Shown: positions 2,900 to 33,742 of the stretch, one piece after another | Position numbering within the stretch: the stretch's first letter is position 1 | Layout of the letters: each line of letters begins with the position of its first letter | Origin: Acidithrix ferrooxidans | Lineage (GTDB): Bacteria > Actinomycetota > Acidimicrobiia > Acidimicrobiales > Acidimicrobiaceae | NCBI RefSeq assembly: GCF_000949295.1 | Contig: NZ_JXYS01000029.1 | Coordinates: forward strand, 1 to 64,000 | Direction of reading: 5' to 3' | Length of the DNA stretch: 64,000 bases | Notes under the pieces: generated by a model | Told to the model about the DNA's origin: nothing | Database searches by the model: none | The model's input: the letters and a program-made list of their open reading frames with translations, nothing else | Program-made: the position numbers and the translations under genes

Positions 2900-3659
2900 T
2901 AGTTCAACCCATCTTTCCAGAGATCAATAAAAAGAATAACCCTGCGCACTTCTTCTCTTAGTCTTTGACAATTAAATCAATCTCGCTCATCTTTATCGTT
3001 TAGCAATCTGATTAGCAAGAGAATCTAGGAAATCTTCGACGACATATAGAATATACCCAAGGAAAATAGCCGAGGAACCTGGACCAAATTACAAGACCCC
3101 AAATGGCTGGGCCTTTCACATCGCGACAAACAAGTTGCTGTGTAATATACCACGGTCTCAATCGCTGTAGATCTTCAACCGTAGTAGTCGAAGATAAACC
3201 ATGTTCATCAGTCTCGCCCAACTACCTTTACCTAGTTGGTGACCGATTTCAAAATATTTCAAAAAATCCTATGGCCAAGTAGAGCTCTTTTATAAAAGGG
3301 TCGAACGCGTAAACGAGCTCTACTCTTTTAGCTGCAATAGTTGCAAATTTCACTGGCAAGTCACTGCACAAATTCGAGTTATGACAAATCAGGAAACATA
3401 TAAAAAGCCAAACCCTTTCAGAGTGTAACCGACTAGCTGACCTGGTCTTTGACCCCACACTTGCCCTAGGTGATCAATTAAAAGAATGATCACCAACTTT
3501 GACTAACGAAGATCCCCTGTGGATCAAACGAAGCTGGGACTTACTCCTAAGCCGCACCATGATCACCAACCAATAGTTGGCTTACGTGGATCGTTTCGCC
3601 TACGACTGGCATCGACTTTCAACCACAGACCTAGCCGGCCACAACTCTATTAGATGATA
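2900..3659. other. Long gene-poor region with a decayed frame and a hairpin
   Basis: No intact gene is convincing. On the minus strand about 2993-3221 looks like a small membrane protein broken by a frameshift: a W/G-rich hydrophobic stretch (GPAIWGLVIW) is followed in another frame by VVEDFLDSLANQIAKR and a stop. I cannot name the family. At 3470-3495 there is a perfect 8-bp inverted repeat (GGTGATCA/TGATCACC, 10-base loop) that could end the ahcY transcript. The 12-mer ATGATCACCAAC occurs twice, near 3487 and 3558. Confidence 0.35.
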
Positions 3660-14527: not shown

Positions 14528-14614
14528 TTAATGGCTGAATAAAAATAACCATAGGTTTTACAGGGCGATAGAGCAGCTTCTATTACCATCTGGAGCCACT
14601 GGATTTAACTAAAG

Positions 14615-14648
14615 AAACCCCCACTTAGAAATTTCTAAGTGGGGGTTT
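14615..14648. terminator. Bidirectional terminator after ftsH
   Basis: A 34-bp perfect palindrome, with arms from AAACCCCCACTTAGAAA meeting at the centre, ends in TTTT on the plus strand and has AAAG before it on the other side. It is 88 bp beyond the ftsH stop. Confidence 0.9.
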
Positions 14649-15898
14649 TCGTCTATATTCGCACTATTTGAAGTCAAGACCAATGGCTCGAGGCGAGCTT
14701 TGCTCGAGCCAAATAAAAATCGTCACATAAAGTTCCGCGAGCAAGACAAGTTTCAATTGACAATTGCTGATATGCCAAGTTTCCGCACCTCCAAATGCAC
14801 AGGCCCATTGAAAGTAATCCAAATACAACATTGCGAGAAGAAATGATCCTCCATCCGCGTCAAAGCTAAACAAGTGAAAGTAGCTACACCGATTCAATCC
14901 ATAGTCCCAAAGGAACTCTCAGAACGGCATAGGTCCTTGGAATCTATCGATAAAGTAGCGCTTTGATAAATTGATACAAAATCTCAGAGTTAGGCAAAGA
15001 TAACACTTTACGCCCAGACTCTAATAATGCTTTCGCTATAACCCACGCCATATTTTGGACCACTGCTCCATCGGCAGCTGTCACTAACCAATAGAGGCCC
15101 TCACCACTAGGAACGTTAAACACCTGATACCACGCAGATCCTCGACGTTACAAATAAAACGAGGGTCGCGCACCTTTTGTGTAAATTTGAACCTTATAAT
15201 TTCCTGCCTTTAAATCCCTCTACCAGATAGATCTCTTGAGTTAGGTTAGCTTTCCCAACCATCAATAACTAGCGGTAGCGTTTTGTGGACAGATAATAAG
15301 ATCTTGGCAATATCCACAGAGCACTGGCTCTTGACCTGTAAATCCACCTTGGACACCTAAAAATACATGGGCAGGCAACAAGCTAAACAATGACACCGCT
15401 ATTGGATACGAGAACCCTGAGGGGACCTTCGAGCTTAGCAAGCAGAACGCTCTTGGGCAAGAGATTTCCTATGGTTTTACCATCTCACTCCAAGGATCAA
15501 CAGACAACTTGCCTAGGCTCGATAGGATTTGGTCCAATTTGCAAAGGTTAAGTAAATGTCATGTTCACAAGACAATCAACCCACGGGTTAGCACTGTGCA
15601 CCTAGACAATTGAACAAGTGAGCCCATAACGTAACTCCTTTGAAATTCACGGTTCGCATCTACTGTCGCATAGACCATAGCCAACCGCAATCTCTGTCAA
15701 ACAAGAATTCCAAAAAACTGATTTACGAACTGTTCGATTGCCCCTTAGCAAGAGATCGAACTCAACAGGTTAGATATGATAGCAAAGACGCACCTAGTGC
15801 CAGTAGATCCCAGTGCTAATCAATCCCAGGGGCGAGCCTCGATAACTTGAAACGGCCATCGTCCTCACCGAGGCTTCGAGGATCTTAGAAAAAGTATA
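14649..15898. other. Gene-poor region of about 1.25 kb
   Basis: Apart from the short minus frame at 14944-15147 (listed separately) I see no gene. A 77-codon minus frame at 14664-14897 has no recognisable features. An imperfect hairpin (CCTCG/CGAGG) lies near 15140-15165. The stretch looks like decayed sequence. Confidence 0.45.
14944..15147 (-). pseudogene. Short coding-like fragment, family unknown
   Basis: This frame is open from after a TAA at 15148-15150 to a TAG at 14944-14946. It reads as a plausible protein: GEGLYWLVTAADGAVV, then MAWVIAKALLESG, and LPNSEILYQFIKALL. The only start candidate is GTG at 15121-15123 (59 residues), with no ribosome site. The regular alternation of strand-like and helix-like segments suggests the end of a former gene whose 5' part has decayed. 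I do not recognise the family. Confidence 0.3.
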
Positions 15899-15914
15899 TC
15901 GAACATTTGTTCGT
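15899..15914. promoter_or_regulatory. SOS box (LexA operator) before small gene at 15950
   Basis: TCGAACATTTGTTCGT matches 11 of the 12 fixed bases of the actinobacterial SOS consensus TCGAAC-N4-GTTCGA. A weak -10 candidate, TAGCAA, overlaps its right edge (15914-15919), and the small gene starts 36-50 bases downstream. The geometry resembles that of the dnaE2 operator in this window. Confidence 0.75.
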
Positions 15915-15949
15915 AGCAACTGTCACAGTGGTATGAGATGATTCTTTCC

Positions 15950-16162
15950 ATGAGAGGACAGATTCTACTTATTGAAGATAACGATACCAAGACTAAAACC
16001 ATAGCGCACGAATATGACCATTTGGCCCCTGACTGGAAGCTTGATGAAAGAACACGTAAGCTAGGACTTTGGCAGATCGAGCAAGCACGGCGCCTTTTAA
16101 TTTCTCAAAGCAATAATGATTCAAAGAGCGGATTCAAAGAGCGATGCGCTCGAGTTCGCTGA
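15950..16162 (+). CDS. Small SOS-box-linked protein, function unknown
   Basis: The 70-residue product (MRGQILLIEDND start) has a variable acidic N-half and a charged, helical C-half containing DWKLDERTRKLG and then IEQARRLL. I believe this WxLDExTRxxG...A(R)xxL pattern recurs in small actinobacterial proteins, but I cannot name a function. An in-frame ATG at 15938 would add four residues; neither start has a clear ribosome site. An SOS box ends 36 bases upstream of the first ATG, so induction by DNA damage is inferred. The YdjC-like gene begins 85 bp downstream on the same strand and could be co-transcribed. Confidence 0.6.
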   Translation: MRGQILLIEDNDTKTKTIAHEYDHLAPDWKLDERTRKLGLWQIEQARRLLISQSNNDSKSGFKERCARVR

Positions 16163-27919: not shown

Positions 27920-30900
27920 CTAGTGAAAATCTCTCGACATTGAACCTATGGAGATATCGAGAGGCTCAATATGCTTAGCCACGATATTTACCACTCCGGA
28001 ATAGCTCTCCAAAACTCCCTCGATGATCAATGCATTCGAAAGCCTAACTATCTGTCTGTGGCTATCCCATATATCCCTTGCCACCACCACATTCATCAAT
28101 CCAGTCTCATCTTCAAGGCTGATAAAAGTTACCCCGTTAGCCGTTGCCGGTCGCTGACGATGGGTCACGACTCCTGCGACCTTAATTCGATCTCTATTTC
28201 TACGCGCCACTAGCTCACTTGCCAAAGAGACACCAAAACCAGACAATCGATCCCGAAAAAATGCCATTGGATGACTAGTTGGTGTCATTCCAAATGCGGC
28301 TAAATCCATGTAGCTCCTATCCTTAGAGGTCATCTCCTTTAGTTTTGGAGCCTCGTCTCCAAGTGTCATTCCGGGCAAACCATTCGAGGCACGCCTAGCC
28401 AAAGGCTCTGCTATCCAAATCGCCTGCCGCCTCGTCAAGGTAGCTCCAGCCCCACTTGAGGTAAGTCCCTCGAGGGCCCCTGAGCTAGCTAAAGACTCAA
28501 GTTGCGCTCTATCAATTGACGTCTTGATCACAAGATCTTCAATATTTAGATATGGTGCATTCGCAACTATTGAAGATGCCATGGCTTTGCCTACCTTGGC
28601 TATCTGACCAATTCCTATTCGTAGATTGGGCCCAATCCGACAACGTTCATGGATGTCAGAGATGTAGCCACCTTCGGATTTCGGCCTCTCATTCCCAGAG
28701 GCAACAAAAGAGGGGTCCCTCACGACCGATGGCCCTTCCAAGGTGCATTCAACGCTTGAGAAGTTCACATGTGGACCTAGCACTTCAACACCGTGTCTCT
28801 TAGCATCTTCTATAAGAGTCTCTCTTGACCAAAAACCCATTGGCTGAGAATTAATAATCGAGGCTGCAAATGCAGCAGTATAGAAGTACTTGAACCAAGC
28901 CGAAGCGTAGACCAGATAGGCAAACGACGCCGAATGACTCTCGGGAAACCCAAAGTTGGCAAAGGCCTCCAATTTCGCAAAGATCTCATCTGCCGTCCTC
29001 TCGACGATACCATTTCGAGCCATCCCCTCATAAAAGCGAACTTTGAGTTTTTCCATTCGATCTTTAGATCTCTTGGATCCCATAGCCTGGCGCAACTGGT
29101 CTGCTTCAGATGGGGTAAATCCGGCCACATCGATTGCCATCTGCATGAGTTGCTCTTGAAATAGAGGTACCCCAAGAGTCTTAGAGAGAGATTTCTCTAA
29201 CAATGGATGAAGATAGGTAACCTTCTCTAGACCATTTCGTCGGCGGATATAGGGGTGAACCGAACCACCTTGGATGGGTCCTGGCCTTATCAGAGCCACC
29301 TCAACAACAAGATCATAAAAGTGTCTTGGTCTCAGTCGAGGTAGCGTTGCCATCTGTGCCCGACTCTCGACTTGAAAGACTCCTACTGTATCCGCCTGTG
29401 AGAGCATCTCGTAGACGACATCTTCTTGGGGAATTAGCGCCAAGTCGCACCTTTGCCCGTAGTAACCAAAGACCGTATCCACCATGCGATGAAGGGCCTC
29501 TAGCATGCCCAGACCCAAAAGGTCAAACTTGACCAAACCCGCTATAGCGCAATCATCCTTATCCCATTGGAGTACGGTTCTTCCAGGACGACGAGCCCAC
29601 TCAACCGGGCATACCTCCACAATTGGCCGATCGCAAATCACCATTCCACCGGTATGAATACCCAAATGTCGCGGAGACCGTTCAATCTCAGTGGCGAACT
29701 GCGCAACTCTTGGCGGAAGATCTAAAATCGGCTCCCCTTTTGCATCTCTAACAGCCACCATTTCCGCCAAGGACTTATAGCGGTCCACTTGCTTTGACCA
29801 AGTGTTGATCACAGAGGTTGGATAGCCAAAAGCCCTCGCCACATCTCGTATGGCTGAACGCGATCTATAGGTAATTACATTGCTAACTTGGGCGGCACGG
29901 TCACGACCGTACTTTTCATAGACATACTGAATAACCTCTTCCCGAGCCTCACTTTCAAAGTCAACGTCGATATCTGGAGGGCCATCTCGCTCTGTTGAAA
30001 GAAACCTCTCAAATAGCAACCCCAGCGAGACCGGATCAACATTGGTTATTCCAAGGGCATAGCAAACTGCAGAGTTTGCAGCCGACCCCCTGCCTTGGCA
30101 GTAGATATTAGAGGATCTAGCGAATTGTACAATATCCCAAACAATCAAAAAATATCCACCAAATCCCAACCTTTCAATTATTTTAAGTTCGTACTCAAGC
30201 TGAGCATAGGCCCCCTTGACCCTCTCGTTATCCTTTGGACCATAGCGTTCGGTCGCCCCTTTCATAGTCAGGCTTCTAAGGTAGTACGTCTGAGACTGAC
30301 CATGGGGAACCAAAGAATTAGGCAGAGCCGGAGCGAGCAGTGAAAGATCAAATGCGCATTCAAGGCCAATCTCATAGGCCCGAGAGACCAGCTCTGGATA
30401 TCTACGAAAGCGACGAAGTTGATCCCTCGGAGAACGCAAGTGCGCCATCTGATCCACCGGAAGCCATCCGTCAATTCCATCTAGATTCTTGCCAGCCCTA
30501 ATAGCAGCGGTAACCGAATGCAATTTAGCGTTCTTAGTACTGGCGTAGTGAACGTTATTGCTAGCAACACAATTCAAGTCAAGGTCTGTGGCGATCTTAA
30601 CAAATTCATCGTTACGGGCTTGATCTAGGGGATCTCCATGATCCCAACACTCGATAACAAACCTATCTCTACCAAAGATTTCAGAGAGCTCTTTGGCAAC
30701 TCTTCGAGCAGCCTGGGGACCATTTTCAATCAAAGCGGACGACAAGCCACCCTTGCGACATCCACTAAGTATGACCCAATCCGTATAGTCACAACGAGAC
30801 AGGTCATCAAGAGAAAGATCAAAGACCCCCTTATTTGAATCTTTTAAATGACCTTTGGAAATCACGCGAGAAAGGCTCGCATAGCCACTGGGGTTTTTAG

Positions 30901-31180
30901 CCAAGATAACTAGATGTTCACCTTGAGGATCTTCAATATTGTCTCTTGGCTTTGTGGAGTTTATGGTCAACTCAGCCCCAAAAACCGTCTTGAGAGAGGT
31001 CCCTCGTGCAGCTCCTGCAAAAGCCACGACGCCATAGAGGCCATTGTGATCAGTTATGGCACAGATCGGAAGTTCCGCATCTATCGCTCGTTCAACTATC
31101 TCACTTGGACTTGAAACACCATCCAAAAAACTGAAATTAGAGTGGCAGTGAAGCTCGGCGTATTTTGGGTTATCGTTCAC
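27920..31180 (-). CDS. dnaE2: Error-prone DNA polymerase III alpha subunit DnaE2
   Basis: DnaE2 is the catalytic polymerase of damage-induced mutagenesis, working with ImuA' and ImuB. The N-terminal PHP domain begins YAELHCHSNFSFLDG. The C-family palm carries GRGSAANSAVCY (about residue 364) and the catalytic PDIDVDFES (about 400), followed by finger motifs (LFQEQLMQMA, SDADQ-like SEADQLRQAMG) and a C-terminal OB fold ending in the VVNIVAKHIEPL segment. The length of 1086 is typical of DnaE2 and shorter than DnaE1. The start is GTG, with no ribosome site, seven bases after a -10 box, so the mRNA appears leaderless. An SOS box lies in its promoter. Confidence 0.93.
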   Translation of the reverse strand: MNDNPKYAELHCHSNFSFLDGVSSPSEIVERAIDAELPICAITDHNGLYGVVAFAGAARGTSLKTVFGAELTINSTKPRDNIEDPQGEHLVILAKNPSGYASLSRVISKGHLKDSNKGVFDLSLDDLSRCDYTDWVILSGCRKGGLSSALIENGPQAARRVAKELSEIFGRDRFVIECWDHGDPLDQARNDEFVKIATDLDLNCVASNNVHYASTKNAKLHSVTAAIRAGKNLDGIDGWLPVDQMAHLRSPRDQLRRFRRYPELVSRAYEIGLECAFDLSLLAPALPNSLVPHGQSQTYYLRSLTMKGATERYGPKDNERVKGAYAQLEYELKIIERLGFGGYFLIVWDIVQFARSSNIYCQGRGSAANSAVCYALGITNVDPVSLGLLFERFLSTERDGPPDIDVDFESEAREEVIQYVYEKYGRDRAAQVSNVITYRSRSAIRDVARAFGYPTSVINTWSKQVDRYKSLAEMVAVRDAKGEPILDLPPRVAQFATEIERSPRHLGIHTGGMVICDRPIVEVCPVEWARRPGRTVLQWDKDDCAIAGLVKFDLLGLGMLEALHRMVDTVFGYYGQRCDLALIPQEDVVYEMLSQADTVGVFQVESRAQMATLPRLRPRHFYDLVVEVALIRPGPIQGGSVHPYIRRRNGLEKVTYLHPLLEKSLSKTLGVPLFQEQLMQMAIDVAGFTPSEADQLRQAMGSKRSKDRMEKLKVRFYEGMARNGIVERTADEIFAKLEAFANFGFPESHSASFAYLVYASAWFKYFYTAAFAASIINSQPMGFWSRETLIEDAKRHGVEVLGPHVNFSSVECTLEGPSVVRDPSFVASGNERPKSEGGYISDIHERCRIGPNLRIGIGQIAKVGKAMASSIVANAPYLNIEDLVIKTSIDRAQLESLASSGALEGLTSSGAGATLTRRQAIWIAEPLARRASNGLPGMTLGDEAPKLKEMTSKDRSYMDLAAFGMTPTSHPMAFFRDRLSGFGVSLASELVARRNRDRIKVAGVVTHRQRPATANGVTFISLEDETGLMNVVVARDIWDSHRQIVRLSNALIIEGVLESYSGVVNIVAKHIEPLDISIGSMSRDFH

Positions 31181-31230
31181 AACTAATATTGTAATCGAAC
31201 ATCTGTTCGATTACAATATTAGTTGTGAAC
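31175..31230. promoter_or_regulatory. 56-bp palindromic SOS operator with two mirrored promoters
   Basis: Two perfect 26-bp arms flank ATCT at 31201-31204. The core TCGAACATCTGTTCGA (31195-31210) is a full consensus SOS box. On the minus strand TTGTAA (31216-31211), a 17-base spacer holding the box, and TACAAT (31193-31188) make a promoter. Seven bases later comes the dnaE2 GTG. By symmetry the plus strand has TTGTAA 31189-31194, the same spacer, TACAAT 31212-31217 and a GTG at 31225. LexA bound here would block both. Confidence 0.85.
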
Positions 31231-31306: not shown

Positions 31307-33040
31307 TCAATCATAGATCGCCTCCAGGTACCATCTAGAGTTTTGAATTATCGCCATCATCGCAACTCCGTCATCAGCCACAACTTGGATTCTTGCTAGC
31401 CTTTTAGAGTTTTTGGAGTCCCACCACTTCTCGTTCATCGGCCATGGTCCTATAATCTTTGAGATCTTCTTAGGCCTCTCAAAAAGAGAGTTGATAACTA
31501 TCTCGTGCGGCTCCGAGGTAAACTCCCCCGATCCGCTAACGCTTACCTTTAGGCCATCAACTCCTAATATCTCCATTGGAACCACAGGATCAAAGACCAA
31601 AGATGGTTCAGGACCTGGGACCTGGCCCGGCCAAGGAGAAGAGCTAATCCTCGATGAATCTTGAGGTTCTTCAAAGAGTTGCAACTGCCACTCAATCAAC
31701 TTAAACTTATCTCTCGGAGATCTTCCCGAATTGCTCTTCGGAACGGTAATCGAGCCGTCTCCAAGGCGCGCCTTGGCCCTTTCAATCGCCCTCAAGACCT
31801 GCTCTTTGGGGTGAAAGGCGCAGGAATAGAGATCCAGCTGTACCGAGGGGTTCGAGGTGACATCTAGGACCTCAACCTCACAATAGACCACCCCTGAACT
31901 TGGTGGCTCTCGATTGGTCTTTGAATTAGGCGTAGTCCACGAGTCAAGTTGCCATCGGGACCAACTCAAAAGAAACTGAGTAGATATAGGAATCCCACTG
32001 GTCCACACCCTAGAGAAAGTCTCGGCCGACTCCGTCTCAAAGACCACTCTCACCCTTAGCGGATAGAGTCCTCTGTCGTAAAGGGAGGAAAAAAGAAGAT
32101 CCACATTTGATCTCATGGAAAAGATAATTGTCTCAGCCAAATAGCCCGGAGGATCAAATTCGACTCTAACAGAGTGGCTGGCCTTCACATCCCTCTTTTG
32201 AATCCCACTGCCATCTATCCCATTTCCCAGCTCGAACAGTCGTCTACCCATCGAACCAAATCGTTCGATAAGCAAATTGCGAGGAAGCTCCAGTAGATCG
32301 GAGACCTTATCGATGCCAGAGGATCTCATAGTTTCAAAGTCGTGTCCTTGCCCGAAGACCTCTATAGGGAAACCCGATAGAAACTCCTTGGTGAAACCCA
32401 CCTTGACCACAACGCCAAAGCCAGAGGCGACCTTAGCGCAAAAGAGGCCATCGGCCACGCCGAACAAAAACCAACTACCATAGTCAGAAGTTGACTCCTC
32501 TTCTAAGGTGGAATTTGAGAAAGGTCGATCCGGACTCCGCCTCTTTTTGCTGGGATTCGCATAGACCTCAAAGTCAATCTTTCCCAGCGCCTTTGCGAGC
32601 TTTTTCAAGAGAGACGCCTCACCACCAAAATACTTTGCCGGTCCCTTTAGGTTGAAGCCACACAGACCAGGAGAAAAGACCTCGACCTCAGGGCAAAACT
32701 CCTCTGCGACATTGATCACTCTTTCAAATTGCGAGAGCTCTAAGTCGTAGTCGGAGTCGATCACCAACAACTCCGAGGATTTTTCCAATGTGGCCTCAAT
32801 GCGATCTTCAACTCTTATGCCAAGAGCCCGTGCAGCCAATGTAACCGCCACTACCCTTTTGTTGTCAACCACAATCGCCTGTTGATCTTGAGAGATCGAA
32901 CGTGACAGAAAAGGCCAGTTAGGGACAAAGATGACGAGCATTCGTGGAGTATTTACCTGATCTAACTCTTCGAACAGACTCTGACTGGATCCATAACGCC
33001 TCATAGTCCAACGACCAGTTGCATCTTGGAAGCGGACCAC
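31307..33040 (-). CDS. imuB: ImuB, Y-family polymerase-like mutasome protein
   Basis: ImuB is a catalytically inactive Y-family homologue that bridges DnaE2 to the sliding clamp. The fold starts LVIFVPNWPFLSR near residue 35 and includes ARALGIRVEDRIE (about 90), the polymerase-like VFSPGLCGFNLKGPAKYFGGE region, and HhH-like LLELPRNLLIERFG (about 251). The DDE carboxylates of active Pol IV are not evident. Near residue 455 the sequence WQLQLFEE contains a QLxLF clamp-binding motif, the key interaction element of ImuB. It overlaps imuA by 40 bp and is followed after 126 bp by dnaE2. Confidence 0.88.
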   Translation of the reverse strand: MVRFQDATGRWTMRRYGSSQSLFEELDQVNTPRMLVIFVPNWPFLSRSISQDQQAIVVDNKRVVAVTLAARALGIRVEDRIEATLEKSSELLVIDSDYDLELSQFERVINVAEEFCPEVEVFSPGLCGFNLKGPAKYFGGEASLLKKLAKALGKIDFEVYANPSKKRRSPDRPFSNSTLEEESTSDYGSWFLFGVADGLFCAKVASGFGVVVKVGFTKEFLSGFPIEVFGQGHDFETMRSSGIDKVSDLLELPRNLLIERFGSMGRRLFELGNGIDGSGIQKRDVKASHSVRVEFDPPGYLAETIIFSMRSNVDLLFSSLYDRGLYPLRVRVVFETESAETFSRVWTSGIPISTQFLLSWSRWQLDSWTTPNSKTNREPPSSGVVYCEVEVLDVTSNPSVQLDLYSCAFHPKEQVLRAIERAKARLGDGSITVPKSNSGRSPRDKFKLIEWQLQLFEEPQDSSRISSSPWPGQVPGPEPSLVFDPVVPMEILGVDGLKVSVSGSGEFTSEPHEIVINSLFERPKKISKIIGPWPMNEKWWDSKNSKRLARIQVVADDGVAMMAIIQNSRWYLEAIYD

Positions 33041-33621
33041 TTGTTTGCGCTCACTTCAATCTTCAGCGTTCTAGTTGCAATTGGAGCACTTCCATCGAGT
33101 TGCCAACTCGATCCTTTGGCCAATAAGGAAAAGTCACAACTACCCGGCCAGGTCGCCCCTTTTTTTCCAAGGGTAGAAAGATAGATAAGGATCGACTTTG
33201 TCTTTCTTGTGCGTTCCGAAAGCTTTCGTGCGCGAGTCGCATCAAGCGGAGAAGATAAAACTACAATATCAAAGCCATCTAACATAATGGCGGCGATCTC
33301 AACCGCCTCCGAAGAGGTACACTTCACATTGAGAAGTCTCTTCAAGTCGACGCCATGATCCCTAGCTGCAGCAAAACCAAGATTCGGGCTGCCTACGATA
33401 GCAATCCAGTTCCCCATAGAGCTAGGTCTTGCCAGAAGTCCAAATAAGAGTGATGTAATTCCGCTCCCTAATTCACCGCCAAGCACACCAACCGATCCCC
33501 GACGCAAAGAAGAGTTAGGTAAGATGTCCCTAAACTTATCCAGAACCTCTATCCGCTGATCGATAGCTAAAGTTGTTGGAGCAACAATTGCCGAAAATTT
33601 AGCTAAATCCTGTCTGCCCAT
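33001..33621 (-). CDS. imuA: ImuA-like RecA-fold mutasome protein
   Basis: The 206-residue protein has the RecA/SulA-like fold of ImuA'. The nucleotide loop GGELGSGITSLLFG (about residue 49) lacks the GKT lysine, as expected for the non-ATPase mutasome member. Later segments are NWIAIVGSPNLGFAAARDHGVD and the DIVVLSSPLDATRARKL strand-helix. It starts the imuA-imuB-dnaE2 order. The ATG is six bases after TATAGT, and no ribosome site is present, so a leaderless mRNA is likely. An SOS box overlaps the promoter. Confidence 0.82.
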   Translation of the reverse strand: MGRQDLAKFSAIVAPTTLAIDQRIEVLDKFRDILPNSSLRRGSVGVLGGELGSGITSLLFGLLARPSSMGNWIAIVGSPNLGFAAARDHGVDLKRLLNVKCTSSEAVEIAAIMLDGFDIVVLSSPLDATRARKLSERTRKTKSILIYLSTLGKKGATWPGSCDFSLLAKGSSWQLDGSAPIATRTLKIEVSANKWSASKMQLVVGL

Positions 33622-33625
33622 AATA

Positions 33626-33657
33626 AAACTATATCGAACATATGTTCAATATAGTTT
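33626..33657. promoter_or_regulatory. SOS box of imuA within a near-perfect 32-bp palindrome
   Basis: TCGAACATATGTTCAA at 33634-33649 differs at one position from the SOS consensus. It sits in a 32-bp palindrome with a single mismatch. On the minus strand TATAGT (33633-33628) lies six bases before the imuA ATG. The mirror TATAGT (33650-33655) lies five bases before a plus-strand ATG at 33661 that opens only five codons. Confidence 0.8.
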
Positions 33658-33742
33658 GTAAATGGATAGATATCTTTAAAGTTCAGGAATAACTGATCTA
33701 TAAAAAAGATCGCTCAAAAGTTTTCTGGATCAACCTGCCAAC

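Follow-up and report, generated by a model that had tools for sequence, protein, structure and literature searches.

A small-protein family of Acidimicrobiia with a candidate sliding-clamp motif behind damage-type promoters

To our knowledge, bacterial clamp binders known to be damage-induced are either polymerases or accessory proteins of large size. A clamp motif near the N-terminus (QLSLPL) is carried by Hda of Escherichia coli, an AAA+ protein controlling DnaA. In animals, p21 and PAF15 are small, mostly disordered, damage-linked ligands of the sliding clamp, and bind PCNA via a PIP box. In mycobacteria, changing the QLPLWG motif of ImuB abolishes both ImuB-clamp foci and mutagenesis (PMC10421592), so mutasome function can hinge on such a motif alone. 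Mycobacterial genes bearing PafBC and SOS elements together are also known (PMC8223512).

The DNA analysed here (the window) is a stretch of 64,000 nucleotides from Acidithrix ferrooxidans. A gene for a 70-residue protein lies at 15950..16162 on the + strand. The protein consists of a clamp-binding-like N-terminal motif, a linker, a conserved helix and a basic tail. Conservation marks this small open reading frame as a real gene, because homologues were found in the genus, in the family and in much of the class Acidimicrobiia. Single-sequence and profile searches recovered homologues in 7 of the 11 other genomes of the genus (the four without a match are 82-89% complete) and in other genera of the family. 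Across the class, 99 of 296 sampled genomes, about a third, were positive, corresponding to 67 of 148 genera, with homologues of 45-75 residues. Outside Acidimicrobiia, a search of the whole phylum found no convincing member. Pfam, NCBIfam, PADLOC and PDB sequences were searched with the small protein and returned no match of useful score, and there is no family model for it in Pfam or NCBIfam. Matches to DUF5528 (E 0.044) and to PHROG entries were weak, below any cut-off, and were rejected. No description of the family was found in the open-access literature, although one elsewhere is possible; as far as that literature, Pfam and NCBIfam reach, this is an undescribed family of Acidimicrobiia.

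The family N-terminus reads MxxQ[LIM]xL[LI] and is followed by one conserved helix, WxLDxxTRxxGxxxxxxARxxL. The N-terminal pattern fits the clamp-binding consensus (QL[S/D]LF or QxxLF; PMC12309361), but has I or L as the fifth residue instead of the preferred F. In the window protein the candidate beta-clamp-binding pentapeptide is QILLI, codons 4-8 (15959..15973, + strand), against a family consensus of Q[LIM]xL[LI]. The helical motif is WKLDERTRKLGLWQIEQARRLL, codons 29-50 (16034..16099, + strand), as located from the homologue alignment and the predicted structure. An alignment of 33 homologues shows no variation at Q4, L7, D32, G39, A46, R47 and L50 (window numbering) and very little at W29, L31 and T35. 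Sixty-three homologues were re-detected with a helix-only profile. Within their first 25 residues, 52 of these contain Q[LIMV]xL[LIFM], compared with 0.3 in shuffled sequences, and in 39 the glutamine is exactly Q4; the profiles of the original collection included the N-terminus, a mild bias in these counts. Most of the exceptions are near-matches (QLLLV, for example) or start-site errors. AlphaFold2 predicted residues 1-32 as disordered and a single helix over 33-68, with confidence of 94-97 over residues 31-50. By its short motif, the conserved position of that motif and the predicted disorder, the N-terminus looks like the tag through which repair proteins dock on the beta clamp of DNA replication. 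A second clamp-like motif, QPTLPL, was seen near the C-terminus of two homologues (L032 and L035).

The gene product is best read as a ligand of the DNA sliding clamp that stands alone and is induced by damage, with the helix serving a second partner or DNA; we give this reading a probability of roughly 60%. It would share with mycobacterial ImuB an SOS-regulated gene, a clamp-binding motif and action without polymerase activity of its own. ImuB differs in being a large Y-family pseudopolymerase whose motif is internal, whereas members of the small family have 45-75 residues and carry theirs at the extreme N-terminus. Hda is similar in the placement of its motif, but the small protein has no AAA+ domain. 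The resemblance to p21 and PAF15 is a functional analogy only, with no sequence relationship.

The 16-mer TCGAACATTTGTTCGT (15899..15914, strandless) precedes the gene and forms the upstream edge of its promoter. It agrees with TCGAACN4GTTCGA at 11 of 12 positions, as the initial annotation had stated, and the spacing given there also held, with 35 bases between the box and the start at 15950. A first-order simulation of the window gave an expectation of 0.22 boxes per 64 kb with at most one mismatch, versus three present: that of the small gene (15899), that of dnaE2 (31195) and that of imuA' (33634). Across the genome (4.02 Mb), only four sites match the core CGAACN4GTTCG exactly. Two of these are within the window; the others are inside an acyl-CoA dehydrogenase gene and before a glycosyltransferase-like gene. 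Upstream of recA of the same genome lies TCGAACATATGTTCTT, with the same box core. In the genus, the box was kept in all eight members that have the small gene (this genome and seven others), always at -50/-51 from the start. These comparisons identify TCGAACATTTGTTCGT as a genuine LexA box, because recA, dnaE2 and imuA' of the same genome carry it and the homologues of the genus have it at the same place. The remark that the box is placed like those of the known SOS genes in the window was thereby borne out.

The two other SOS-box genes of the window belong to a mutasome locus on the - strand, formed by dnaE2 (27920..31180, box at 31195-31210), imuB (31307..33040, with its own clamp motif QLQLF) and imuA' (33001..33621, box at 33634-33649). 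NCBIfam models confirmed DnaE2 and ImuA'. A perfect 56-bp palindrome (31175-31230; 27-nt arms, 2-nt centre) is centred on the dnaE2 box; it reaches into the first dnaE2 codons and is far longer than a LexA operator needs. The imuA' box lies inside a longer imperfect palindrome (33613-33670; 29-nt arms, 76% complementary).

Aligned upstream regions of 67 homologues showed a LexA box at none of those outside the genus (sister genera and other families), although recA in these genomes keeps the same box core. A different element was shared. TGTCAC-N11-ATAMT (that is, TGTCAC-N10-xATAMT), with at most two mismatches, was present at -28/-29 in 60 of the 67 distinct homologues across Acidimicrobiia, the loci coming mostly from protein searches and a few having entered via the promoter pattern itself. 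TGTCAC and the spacing fit the PafBC motif TGTC(G/A)(G/C)-N10-TANNNT, while the first base of the -10 hexamer is usually C or G in the homologues, versus T in TANNNT. The variant TGTCAC-N10-TA-N3-T has been reported in M. tuberculosis (PMC8151990). In the window, alignment with relatives and this published variant place the upstream half of a PafBC/RecA-NDp-type promoter at TGTCACAG (15921..15928, + strand) and its -10 hexamer at GATGAT (15937..15942, + strand), 7 bp before the start. The hexamer of the relatives is xATAMT and ends about 7 bases 5' of the ATG; GATGAT deviates from this consensus. Position 15950 was taken as the start rather than 15938, that of the longer open reading frame: the first residue of the orthologues aligns with 15950, whereas 15938 is part of the conserved -10 hexamer. 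With this conserved promoter spacing the mRNA is probably leaderless, starting at 15950.

A stricter pattern, TGTCACACN9ATAMT, was searched in 198 Acidimicrobiia genomes and gave about 90 matches, against 4 for the reversed control. Besides the small gene, its targets included UvrB, RecC, three RmuC, a Y-family polymerase, the rpsF-ssb-rpsR operon and many DUF222-HNH genes. The TTGTCAC promoter pattern had no matches in the A. ferrooxidans genome, because the element there is ACTGTCACAG and the -10 is GATGAT. That genome encodes a single fused PafBC of 653 residues, matching the Arthrobacter PafBC structure (PDB 6sj9) with E 4e-32. The element resembles that of the mycobacterial PafBC/RecA-NDp regulon in its TGTC-type sequence, in the 10 bp that separate it from the -10, in its repair-gene targets and in the co-existence of PafBC and SOS elements at some genes. 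It differs in that Acidimicrobiia mainly use TGTCACAC with xATAMT, and in that recA was not seen with the element in the Acidimicrobiia genomes checked; in A. ferrooxidans it was seen at neither recA nor dnaE2. Taken together, the promoter sequences, their repair-gene targets and the encoded PafBC support PafBC as the likely regulator of the small gene.

On the question of whether homologues elsewhere have the box, the answer was therefore divided: all in the genus do, and beyond it the box is absent while nearly all keep the PafBC-type promoter. Since that promoter is itself of a damage type, the proposal of a damage-induced small protein survives and broadens. In the simplest history suggested by these alignments, the class as a whole shares a PafBC-type core promoter and one genus alone has a LexA operator. 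With the operator at a fixed position beside the class-wide core, the alignments also hint at the way in which the two damage responses are combined.

Two sets of genes among these targets were noted. In one genome (G061, loci L183-L191), nine DUF222-HNH genes have the PafBC-type promoter and, directly downstream of its -10 and ahead of the start, the LexA box CGAACATATGTTCG. The same damage-type promoter was found before genes for a Cas7-like protein (GSU0053), a SAVED-domain protein and a SMODS-like nucleotidyltransferase (L175, L209, L232). The SAVED and SMODS targets are two CBASS-type genes, and these promoters hint at damage-inducible defence systems.

A YdjC-like gene (PF04794; 16248..17120, + strand) follows the small gene after 85 bp, as annotated initially, and is a probable co-transcribed neighbour. 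The order ftsH - small gene - YdjC was kept in the genus and in the related genera read in detail. The shared transcript proposed for the two genes is plausible, because both order and spacing are conserved. YdjC is the closest conserved neighbour of the small gene, and we know of no link between it and DNA repair. At metal-ligand positions, the CDD and GVHLTL of a relative (L025) correspond to CDY and GVSLVF in the YdjC-like protein, which is consistent with loss of the metal ligands. Between ftsH and the small gene, 14528-15898 is a stretch of about 1.37 kb with no obvious gene, compared with roughly 0.1 kb in relatives; it had no match in the fetched loci or in the rest of the window.

This neighbourhood allows the small protein to be a partner or regulator of the YdjC-like protein, with an N-terminal motif that has nothing to do with the clamp. 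A YdjC gene is next on the same strand, within 1.5 kb downstream, at 32 of 83 loci, including several in other families. Most other homologues have no YdjC within that distance, the substrates of YdjC proteins are carbohydrates, and the N-terminal motif closely fits clamp binding, so we consider a YdjC partner improbable. Still further from the evidence is a damage-induced inhibitor of cell division of the SulA, SidA or Rv2719c type, which the initial annotation had suggested on the strength of a small protein with an SOS box ahead of it. The protein has neither a membrane segment nor a signal peptide (hydropathy over 19 residues peaks at -0.36), and it shows no LysM domain and no family match. 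Its conserved parts are one helix and a motif indicating the clamp, and the suggestion, left unsupported, is very hard to credit.

The same annotation had offered a mutasome accessory, and part of this stood. In its strict form, the protein would be a fourth dedicated component of the ImuA'-ImuB-DnaE2 mutasome, binding the clamp and handing it to DnaE2, or stabilising DnaE2 on it, in translesion synthesis. LexA control is common to the small gene, dnaE2 and imuA' in the window, and ImuB too works via a clamp motif. ImuA' was above cut-off in 80 of the 99 genomes with the small gene versus 62 of the 197 without (odds ratio 9, from raw counts in which phylogeny and genome size are ignored). Where the small gene and imuA' are on one contig, 18 of 25 genomes have them within 45 kb (12-45 kb apart), all of these genomes belonging to the same taxonomic order as A. 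ferrooxidans. This linkage is conserved within the order, but it is non-operonic and is lost outside it, and the wider promoter regulon is one of general repair. Strict co-occurrence also fails, as 19 of the 99 genomes with the small gene have no ImuA' above cut-off. Seven of these (G219, G231, G258, G277, G286, G296 and G307, from families f24, f29, f31 and f35) are at least 95% complete. With several families (f29, f31, f35) having the gene but no detectable ImuA', the small protein has no strict tie to the mutasome, and a dedicated fourth component is unlikely. Unlikely as well is a brake on replication, in which the protein, as a kind of minimal p21, would fill the clamp cleft, evict the replicative polymerase and so slow forks in damaged cells. 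A small, apparently damage-regulated protein with a stand-alone clamp motif and no catalytic domain would suit that role, but conservation is equally strong in the helix and in the motif, pointing to a second partner and to a role beyond competition.

A damage-induced clamp ligand with a second contact would work as follows. In the undamaged cell, LexA on the box (-51 to -36) would block the promoter from just upstream. On damage, RecA-triggered cleavage of LexA would free the promoter, and PafBC, activated by single-stranded DNA, would recruit RNA polymerase at the TGTCAC element. A leaderless mRNA would be made, probably together with that of the YdjC-like gene. The disordered N-terminus (QILLI) would then dock in the cleft of DnaN to which polymerases and repair proteins bind, while the helix WxLDxxTRxxGxxxxxxARxxL and the basic tail would contact a partner or DNA. 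Clients of the clamp would be displaced or recruited; most plausibly this would aid a handover to factors for translesion synthesis or repair, the ImuB-DnaE2 mutasome being an example. The wider generalisation is offered tentatively, at somewhat less than even odds: a free-standing peptide-and-helix adaptor under LexA and PafBC control may reassign the clamp during damage across Acidimicrobiia, and would then be the bacterial equivalent of the small eukaryotic clamp ligands that are linked to damage. If true, a damage-controlled clamp ligand of 45-75 residues would be a simple handle on the change of clamp partners after damage.

Elsewhere in the window, a raiA RNA, a structured non-coding RNA, was detected at 3428-3639 on the - strand with a score well above the gathering score.
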